The notes below the pieces were generated by a model, which saw only the letters and a program-made list of their open reading frames with translations, was not told the DNA's origin and did no database searches. A stretch of 64,000 bases of DNA from an uncultured Mediterraneibacter sp. (GTDB lineage: Bacteria; Bacillota; Clostridia; Lachnospirales; Lachnospiraceae). The translations under genes and the position numbers were made by a program. Shown piece by piece: positions 47,118 through 49,473 of the stretch. The stretch spans positions 62,001-126,000 of the forward strand of contig CALWQP010000001.1 of NCBI GenBank assembly GCA_944383695.1, written 5' to 3'. Every line of letters starts with the position of its first letter. The stretch's first letter is position 1.

Positions 47118-47981
47118 ATGGAAAGAAATGACCTTTGCTGGTGCGGCAGTGGAAAGAAATACAAAAAATGCCACATGCCGATCGAAGAAAAAATGCTCAT
47201 GCACGCAGAAAAAGGAGAGATCGTGCCAACGCGCAAGCTCCTTAAGACACCGGCTCAGATAGAGAAGATCAAAGTAAGCGCCGCCCTTAACACTGCTGTC
47301 CTTGACGAGGTGGCAAAGCATATCCATATCGGAATGAGCACCGCGGAGATCGACGAGATCGTCCACCGCTTCACAGTAGAACACGGCGGCATACCCGCTC
47401 CCCTGGACTATCAGGGTTTTCCGAAAAGCGTGTGCACGTCCATCAATAATGAGATCTGCCACGGCATACCGGATGAAAACGTCATTCTCAAAGAAGGCGA
47501 CATCATCAATGTAGACGTGTCCACCATCCTTGACGGATATTTCTCGGACGCTTCCCGCATGTTCAAGATGGGAAAGGTTTCCGAACGCGCCGAGCGCCTC
47601 GTCCGCGTGACTGAAGAATGCGTGGAACTGGGGCTCGCTGCCGCCAGACCGTGGGGACATCTGGGCGATATCGCTGACGCGATCAACACCCACGCCAGGG
47701 CAAACGGCTACTCCGTCGTGGAAGAGATCGGCGGTCACGGCATCGGACTCGCCTTCCACGAAGACCCCTTTGTAAGCTATGTGACGCCGAAGGGAAGCGA
47801 AATGCTCCTTGTCCCGGGCATGATGTTCACCATCGAACCTATGATCAACGAAGGCAGCCCGGATTTCTTCGTGGATGAAGACAACGGCTGGACCGTGTAT
47901 ACCATAGACGACGGACTGTCTGCACAGATTGAGTATATGGTGCTTGTTAAAGAAGACGGGATTGAAGTATTGACGAAATAA
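47118..47981 (+). CDS. map: methionine aminopeptidase type I with N-terminal SEC-C zinc motif
   Basis: Removes the initiator methionine from nascent proteins. The 287-residue enzyme carries an N-terminal SEC-C zinc-binding segment (DLCWCGSGKKYKKCH; Cys7, Cys9, Cys18, His19), thought to dock at the ribosome or SecA, then the pita-bread catalytic domain. Dinuclear metal ligands: Asp in NVDVS, Asp in FSDASRMF, His in GGHGIGLAFHE, Glu in FTIEPMI, Glu in QIEYMVL. The stop codon coincides with the first bases of the large palindromic element that follows. Confidence 0.97.
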   Translation: MERNDLCWCGSGKKYKKCHMPIEEKMLMHAEKGEIVPTRKLLKTPAQIEKIKVSAALNTAVLDEVAKHIHIGMSTAEIDEIVHRFTVEHGGIPAPLDYQGFPKSVCTSINNEICHGIPDENVILKEGDIINVDVSTILDGYFSDASRMFKMGKVSERAERLVRVTEECVELGLAAARPWGHLGDIADAINTHARANGYSVVEEIGGHGIGLAFHEDPFVSYVTPKGSEMLLVPGMMFTIEPMINEGSPDFFVDEDNGWTVYTIDDGLSAQIEYMVLVKEDGIEVLTK

Positions 47982-48585
47982 ATCTGAATTTGTCAAGGAC
48001 CTTTGTCTGAAGCAAAGCGTCCGAAAACAGAGGAGCAATATGTTGAAGACGTATTCAGCGCGTGGGTATGGCTGGCTTCGGTTCCGCTCCATAGAGCAAG
48101 AAGAACTAAAAAATCTGCAAGTACGCTAAAAACAAAACTGTGCATCGGACAACTCAACTTCGTCTCAAACAATTCCGATGCACAGTTTAACGCGTACTTG
48201 CAGATTTTAAGTTCTTCTAAGCCCTGTCCCGAAGTCACCTCAGCCAGCCATACCCCCGCACTGAAAGACATTCGAAAAGGCGCTCCGCTGTTTTCTGGTT
48301 TTGCTCAAGTATGAAAGTTTCCCCAGAAAATACAGATTTCGGAAAAAGAACGTGCAGCTTCACGGTATCAACTACGGGAAGGAAGCTTTGTTTTGCCGTT
48401 GAAGTTCCCTTTTCATTTTATTTTGAAAATCCTGAATTTTCTTCTGGAAACTGCCGATCAGATGAGCGCAGAAAACCGCAGACCTATTTCAAGAGTCTTT
48501 CGCGGCGGGCGGGGATACATCTTAAAAAAGGCTGCGGTTTTCGGACGCTTTACATGCACGCAGTTCCTGAAACAAATTCAGATTT
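47980..48585. repeat. compound nested palindrome between map and pdxK
   Basis: Six pairs of inverted arms occur in the same order on both sides of a 24-base loop (48150-48173). From outside in: 47980-47993 with 48572-48585 (14 bp); 48014-48028 with 48537-48551 (15 bp); 48023-48036 with 48282-48295 (13 of 14); 48064-48077 with 48242-48255 (14 bp); 48110-48126 with 48192-48208 (17 bp, flanked by a further 9 bp); 48135-48149 with 48174-48188 (15 bp). Spacers between arms are nearly equal on both sides, except for a roughly 240-bp insert at 48296-48536. No transposase or convincing gene is inside. The left end is the map stop codon and the right end lies in the last codons of pdxK. Confidence 0.92.
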
Positions 48586-49473
48586 CATAAGTAATGGGAG
48601 GTATTTTTCGTACTCTGCCCCTTCATCCCTTGGCACTCCCTCCCGGACGGCATCCCATATTGCCTGCTCGATCATTTTTCCTGCCAGCTCCACATCGTCT
48701 GCGAGCTCATCGCCCCGCGCTTTCCCGCCTGCGATCACGGAAGCAAACAGGTCTCCTGTTCCTGAATAGCCTTCCCCGATAAACGGATGCGCGCGGAACT
48801 CTGTCCTGTCTTTTGTGACAACAAGATTTCCCACCTTTTCCCTGCCGTCTGCACTGTCCAGAAAGCGTATTCCGGTGACGACTACCTCCGACGGTCCGTC
48901 CCGCATCACATGCCGGGCAAGTTTTTCTGCTGTTTCCACCATCTTTTTCCCATCCCGGAAGATTCCCACGCTCTCATGCGCGCTCTCCGTTCCCGCTGTT
49001 TTTACGATCTGGCCGGGATCTGCATCTGTCAGCAGACACAGCTCGGTCAGGTTCGGGGTAAGGATATCCGCCCGCTTTGCCAGCCGTTTCATCTCCTCCT
49101 GAAACTCTGGAGAGAAAATAGAGAACCTTTCGCCATTGTCGCCCATGATCGGATCAACAAGGAGAAAGGTATCCTCTCTGTGAAATGCATCCAGAAAATC
49201 AATGGCCCTCTCGATCTGACGGCAGCCTGACATAAATCCCATGTAGATTCCGTCAAACCGGACCTTCATCTTTTCCCATTCCCTCTGGATTTCCCCCATC
49301 TTATCTGTATAGTCGTCGTAGAAATAGCTGGGATAGCCGGTCTGCGCGCTCAAAACAGCGGTCGGCAGAGGACAGGGCTGTACTCCCATGGCAGCGATCA
49401 CTGAGACCGCCGCCGTGAGGGAACACCGTCCGAAACCGGACAGGTCATTTATCACTGCAATCTTTTTTGTCAT
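48550..49473 (-). CDS. pdxK: pyridoxal/pyridoxamine kinase (PdxK/PdxY-like)
   Basis: Phosphorylates B6 vitamers to give pyridoxal phosphate in the salvage route. This 307-residue ribokinase-fold protein starts MTKKIAVINDLSGFGRCSLTAA; VDPIMGDNG near residue 105, TPNLTEL near 140, and the anion-hole/catalytic GYSGTGDLFAS near 232 are typical. The final eleven residues (KSEFVSGTACM) are encoded by the outer arm of the adjoining palindromic element, so the natural C-terminus may have been altered. SD GGGAG precedes ATG 49473. It lies downstream of the GH13 gene on the same strand. Confidence 0.93.
   Translation of the reverse strand: MTKKIAVINDLSGFGRCSLTAAVSVIAAMGVQPCPLPTAVLSAQTGYPSYFYDDYTDKMGEIQREWEKMKVRFDGIYMGFMSGCRQIERAIDFLDAFHREDTFLLVDPIMGDNGERFSIFSPEFQEEMKRLAKRADILTPNLTELCLLTDADPGQIVKTAGTESAHESVGIFRDGKKMVETAEKLARHVMRDGPSEVVVTGIRFLDSADGREKVGNLVVTKDRTEFRAHPFIGEGYSGTGDLFASVIAGGKARGDELADDVELAGKMIEQAIWDAVREGVPRDEGAEYEKYLPLLMKSEFVSGTACM

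Follow-up and report, generated by a model that had tools for sequence, protein, structure and literature searches.

Why should two convergent genes, which we take to be map and pdxK (the name map comes from the initial annotation), be joined in an uncultured Mediterraneibacter sp. by a palindrome of several hundred base pairs? The initial annotation of the DNA analyzed here (64,000 nucleotides of contig CALWQP010000001.1, referred to as the window) described six pairs of arms in mirror order around a 24-base loop, and a repeat search recovered all six, nested around that loop, as well as a seventh pair in the right-hand portion of the element (Table 1). The region is more structured than expected by chance: both strands folded far better than their shuffled versions, with z-scores of -14.6 (plus strand) and -18.7 (minus strand), and none of 20 shuffles of either strand reached the same value. 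The segment at ~48266-48536, previously regarded as an insert on the right, turned out to belong to the element: it bears further hairpins in the predicted fold, and copies of 956-966 bp exist in a relative. In the window, the pdxK frame enters the element, which supplies the final codons and the stop codon of the gene (48550-48585); in L117 and L149, two versions of this site in relatives, a stop codon is found immediately beyond the end of the element.

Table 1. Features of the map-pdxK palindrome and its neighbours, in window coordinates
Feature	Position	Strand	Basis or remark
Whole element, from the map stop codon to inside the end of pdxK	47980..48585		arm pairs and copies elsewhere
Left terminal inverted repeat, AAATCTGAATTTGT	47980..47993	+	repeat search, end pattern
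Right terminal inverted repeat (pairs with the left one over 14 nt, 100%)	48572..48585	-	repeat search, end pattern
Closing stem, second arm, left, AAAGCGTCCGAAAAC	48014..48028	+	repeat search
Closing stem, second arm, right (pairs with the left one over 15 nt, 100%)	48537..48551	-	repeat search
Hairpin 1, the inner four arm pairs	48054..48265	-	repeat search and predicted folds
Inner arm pair, 29 nt, 86%	48054-48082/48237-48265		repeat search
Inner arm pair, 14 nt, 93%	48099-48112/48205-48218		repeat search
Inner arm pair, 24 nt, 88%	48110-48133/48185-48208		repeat search
Inner arm pair, 15 nt, 100%	48135-48149/48174-48188		repeat search
Conserved tip hairpin (model R1)	48105..48214	-	118.8 bits, sole R1 match in the window
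Conserved apical loop	48150..48173	-	repeat search and tip alignment
Offset internal loop, GUUAA side	48187..48191	-	sequence and alignment
Offset internal loop, UGUUUUUAG side	48126..48134	-	sequence and alignment
Middle hairpin, approximate limits	48317..48446		predicted fold and related copies
Hairpin 3	48471..48542		repeat search and copies; tip shorter in the window than in L055 and L057
Seventh arm pair	48471-48489/48524-48542		repeat search
map, left neighbour	47118..47981	+	open reading frame; stop codon (47979-47981) overlapped by the left end of the element
pdxK, right neighbour	48550..49473	-	last codons and stop inside the element

The element is not confined to this locus. BLAST against the 2.84-Mb genome of origin returned 24 rows representing 18 places, the window's own counted in, and across 61 genomes there were matches in 12, own included (12 of the 37 from the genus, none of the 24 from elsewhere in the order). 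The own-genome copies (13 aligned) have in common a terminal repeat like AAATCTGAATTTG; allowing up to one mismatch, the end pattern matched 109 times in this genome and its reversed form twice. Copy size ranges from ~365 bp with a single hairpin up to elements with several hairpins, individual tips being variably present or absent among the own-genome copies. One relative, G360, has eight full copies of 956-966 bp at different loci, which are 80-94% identical (mean 87%). Their longest stop-free stretches span 95-184 codons, and shuffles of three of them gave means of 103-113 and maxima of 148-190 codons; open frames in the copies are no longer than in shuffles, the copies are non-coding, and no protein is encoded by the element. 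A covariance model of the tip hairpin (R1) matched 48 of 58 Mediterraneibacter genomes, with 114 match rows under looser filters in G025, some of them possibly the opposite strand of the same hairpin; G360, G370 and G379 are rich in R1 matches, and G001, G017, G027 and G034 are R1-negative. The search for copies with the same ends, proposed in the initial annotation, thus found many in this genome and in the genus. That annotation had also named restriction to a single locus and uncompensated divergence of the arms as arguments against a mobile or RNA element, and neither was observed. An inverted duplication of the 3' end of pdxK, another of its suggestions, is not supported, because the same element adjoins many other genes.

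At the map-pdxK site itself, relatives contain a ~105 bp version (L117) or a ~340 bp version (L149) of the element, other hairpin elements, or ordinary hairpins within gaps of ~10-181 nt. In other Mediterraneibacter species (L116, L131, L147, L152 and L153), the same intergenic site 3' of map is occupied by a different long hairpin family, with a GGATGTAACG / CTAACATCC stem and another apical loop. The flanks of 13 G000 loci were compared with those of 24 others. Both flanks were shared at three sites, map (L117, L149), degV (L055/L291) and nfo (L062/L288), between species, and therefore old, stable copies exist; the degV junctions agree within two bases. (The names degV, metC, nfo, uvrC, ptsI, RAYT and P2-like are tentative assignments from the sequences, PF01797 being the exception.) Four G000 loci (L054, L056, L061 and L065) shared one flank only, and the two flanks of L064 adjoin two different G360 elements. 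Copies from the same genome were the most alike, more so than copies at the same site elsewhere, in a ranking by bit score, which favours long copies. The G360 degV copy, for example, matches another G360 copy at 91% over 963 nt and the G000 degV copy at 77% over 147 nt; the exception is the close pair G025/G005, with 97.6% at a hemerythrin gene. Judged from these alignments, the likeness of same-genome copies at old sites reads as concerted evolution or replacement. The flanks of one G360 element lie less than 1 kb apart in three of 58 genomes (956 nt in G360, 851 nt in G375, 383 nt in G013) and were never joined gaplessly, as at an empty site, in any of the 58. In G371 and G017 a single contig carries both flanks at a great distance from each other; in most other genomes they fall on different contigs and may or may not be adjacent. 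Elements often mark gene-order breakpoints in the genus. No constant target duplication was seen by eye among the inspected copies.

Beyond the genus, R1 matched 20 of 299 genomes of the family Lachnospiraceae, taken one per genus and own included. The distant copies form hairpins whose arms measure ~90-145 bases (by eye). Their stems are unrelated, but they have the same loops at similar spacing plus a CUUAG/CUUAG mismatch farther out. A second, broader model (R2) matched 41 of 391 Clostridia genomes, belonging to 30 of 223 genera, and 17 of 398 Bacillota genomes, from 13 of 267 genera; both counts include the own genome. The exact tip TGTYTGAGCNNNGCGAGTT occurred at 111 places, summed over 17 of the 398 Bacillota genomes and counted as plain sequence matches; the reversed control gave none, and the own genome lacks the exact pattern because its loops differ. 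Very long, near-perfect arms (-224 to -278 kcal/mol) were observed in G075 (L222 and L232, with mutually unrelated base stems) and G106 (L221). In G958, a relative in the phylum, there are 37 exact tip matches, several less than 70 bases from a contig start, a pattern suggestive of a recent expansion at which the assembly breaks.

Viral contigs contained at least 120 tips in the forward search and 73 in the reversed control. At least 8 of the 14 flanking bases were paired across the loop in 26 of the 120 listed tips, several of which are near-identical relatives, and in none of the 73 reversed ones. At least 10 enclosing pairs were present in 51 of the 120 listed and in 42 of the 73 control tips, and this count is therefore a weak measure. 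R1 matches on the 120 listed viral loci were weak (13 at E <= 0.1, 22.7-34.1 bits), and two viral hairpins compared by BLAST with phage and plasmid collections had no match. A hairpin that sits between one and the same pair of phage genes in five related viral contigs (L306, L308, L313, L321 and L337) has the apical loop unchanged and the sides of the internal loop swapped.

Two alignments describe what is maintained among the copies. In the first (A1, 39 tips), 32 of 35 pairs had changed on both sides with pairing retained. Paired cells amounted to 95.7%, compared with 33-47% when the partner was slid by 1-3 columns; since the rows had been picked by loop motif and folding energy, this percentage holds partly by construction, and more weight belongs to the both-side changes and to the comparison with slid partners. 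Of the 13 invariant columns, the model leaves nine unpaired, and the remaining four fall within a two-pair mini-stem or a U-G pair. The conserved parts of the tip alignment are the apical loop UUGUYUGAG...CGAGUU and the offset internal loop GUUAA / UUUUAG. For the second model, 28 loci were scanned and 27 references were obtained, L217 yielding none; alignment A2 (29 sequences) combines 21 of these with eight genus sequences and omits the five viral references together with L231, which nearly duplicates L220. Here 39 of 43 pairs had changed on both sides with pairing retained. Summed both-side changes outnumbered one-side changes 357 to 78 in A1 and 356 to 61 in A2; the covariation controls were clearly lower in both alignments. 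This excess looks like the result of arms being copied from one another, as opposed to stepwise change. The conserved unpaired positions are probably selected, because they survive such copying.

Taken together, we consider it probable, if well short of certain, that this palindrome exemplifies a non-coding and non-autonomous kind of mobile DNA, MITE- or REPIN-like and recognised by its hairpin, whose copies are made by a putative enzyme acting in trans. The observed basis is the dispersal, the similar ends, the covariation, the conserved loops, the intergenic placement in either orientation, the likeness within genomes and the breakpoints. MITEs have terminal inverted repeats, lack coding capacity and occur as dispersed copies, and of the possibilities raised in the initial annotation a MITE-like element fits best: the copies are dispersed in this genome and its relatives, share terminal inverted repeats and have no coding capacity. 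It differs from a MITE in that its hairpins are nested and their internal and apical loops conserved, and neither a parent transposon nor, by eye, a target duplication was found; a search of the own genome with the end pattern, in which a minority of places were inspected for genes, revealed no transposase or autonomous relative. In the mechanism we propose, the terminal inverted repeats would bracket at least one hairpin, each tip bearing a conserved code of unpaired bases. A putative enzyme would recognise the folded single strand or a cruciform through the tip, and would copy or move the element. Gene conversion, from arm to arm and from copy to copy, may keep the arms paired and the copies alike. 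Where an element spans the interval from one stop codon to another, it would form a 3' boundary common to the two genes, perhaps also their terminator. Against mobility stand the three sites with both flanks shared between species and the results, in the searches above, that no empty site, constant target duplication or transposase was found; the conserved loops could equally serve an RNA.

The latter alternative, anticipated in the initial annotation as an RNA with a very long stem, would make the tips binding motifs in a transcript (e.g. for 3' end stability or regulation), with the stems kept paired by selection on the RNA. In its favour, the stems covary with pairing retained in both alignments and unpaired columns are conserved; the lower z-score of the minus strand also agrees with it. 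Against it stands the mixed orientation to neighbouring genes. A set of 79 distinct hairpins, nearly all from other genera, included 2 located deep within open frames and 6 at contig edges; the other 71 were classified, with the longest open frames taken as genes and same-genome near-copies counted separately, and lie between codirectional (48), convergent (15) or divergent (8) frames. Those between codirectional frames are antisense in 30 cases and sense in 18, which does not support a fixed 3'UTR orientation. The great excess of both-side over one-side changes also resembles arm copying more than stepwise change, and a scan of 47700-48900 found no promoter-like sites. Rfam searches of the window, of 15 further loci (distant or related) and of 8 viral loci yielded no family: the window gave MIR1878 (33.5 bits, gathering threshold 70) and MIR4240, both far below threshold, and the searched stretches otherwise matched T-box, weak SRP and sRNA-Xcc1. 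We regard a structured RNA as rather unlikely.

The elements could also be overgrown terminators, i.e. immobile palindromes that template switching lengthened between convergent genes and that arm correction keeps paired. The placement within the genus is suggestive: in 24 elements with recognisable ends (8 from G000, 12 from G360 and 4 from G025, orthologous ones counted apart), 39 of 48 ends face the 3' end of a gene, 30 of them at most 9 nt from the stop codon and 16 directly after it. The ordinary hairpins in the map-pdxK gap of some relatives fit as well, and the filling of a stop-to-stop gap between convergent genes is reminiscent of bidirectional intrinsic terminators. However, the element is much larger than these, homologous copies with the same ends occur at many loci, the loops are conserved across genera, and 48 of the 71 classified hairpins, nearly all in other genera, have codirectional frames on either side. 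A scan of 47700-48900 for intrinsic terminators (short GC-rich hairpins with a T run after them), which is blind to large hairpins, found none (mean in shuffles 1.5). This origin appears quite improbable.

That the element is a REPIN mobilised by a transposase of the RAYT (Y1) type is highly improbable within the genus. Long Y1 proteins (~255-309 aa; PF01797) are present in many of its genomes, and REPINs are likewise hairpin-forming, non-autonomous and intergenic (PMC3116915), but R1 had no match at 20 long-Y1 loci. Another short palindrome, with GGGACGTAG, lies on the flanks of the gene at 12 loci of a single type. R1 matched seven of the nine genus genomes that lack a Y1 match (among them G370, 100% complete with 39 R1 matches, and G372, 98% with 12), and a long Y1 gene is present in five genomes that R1 did not match. 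In the distant genome G409, two R2 hairpins flank a RAYT-like gene (L463, 2267-3695), which counts against this rejection, and a RAYT link may hold there; the case is given little weight, because GTAGGGGCGACC (GTAG-type) repeats, identified by eye, adjoin the gene too. Separately, a single-copy RAYT-like gene at L266 2050-3040 (G000:C11) has a short palindrome, GGGACGTAGT...ACTACGTCCC, on its flanks, and the arrangement is orthologous in L267, L273-L278, L280, L281, L283 and L284; a similar palindrome follows map in L133, L134, L141 and L142. This has the look of a standard RAYT-REP system, distinct from the giant hairpins.

The hairpin-recognised mobile DNA that we favour can be set beside known systems. 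Integron attC sites vary in stem sequence but retain their fold and a small number of unpaired positions, as the element does; attC sites proper also go with a cassette arrangement, an integron integrase and R/L boxes. 'Skipping-rope' was considered as a candidate lead. A search of open-licence papers found nothing on this element, which is no proof of its being undescribed. The nearest described kind, as far as the excerpts of PMC3116915 and PMC3733652 go, are REPINs and the GTAG- or CGTC-tagged REP repeats, which are also intergenic, non-coding, palindromic and multicopy, fold into hairpins and lack a transposase gene of their own. REP stems are reported as 5-13 bp (PMC3733652), whereas the arms here measure ~90-145 bases (by eye); in place of a GTAG or CGTC foot there is a conserved apical loop, and no RAYT lies beside the tested copies. 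In the portion seen of a stem-loop family survey (PMC2267715), we noticed nothing similar.

As a possibility that we hold only tentatively, the element may belong to a distinct, phylum-spanning class of hairpin-recognised mobile DNA, with the tip UGUYUGAGC-NNN-GCGAGUU and the offset GUUAA/UUUUAG stem loop, moved by an enzyme other than the known hairpin transposases and present on chromosomes and phages; in Mediterraneibacter it would have been enlarged to nested elements that replace whole intergenic regions and reshuffle gene order. Should the tip prove to be a recognition code for an enzyme, common gut bacteria would presumably possess a DNA-mobilising or hairpin-processing activity that has so far gone unrecognised. 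Apart from this, the family provides a test system for the survival of giant palindromes in bacteria and the upkeep of arm pairing, for the homogenisation of copies within a genome, and for the repeat-driven breaking and rejoining of gene order.
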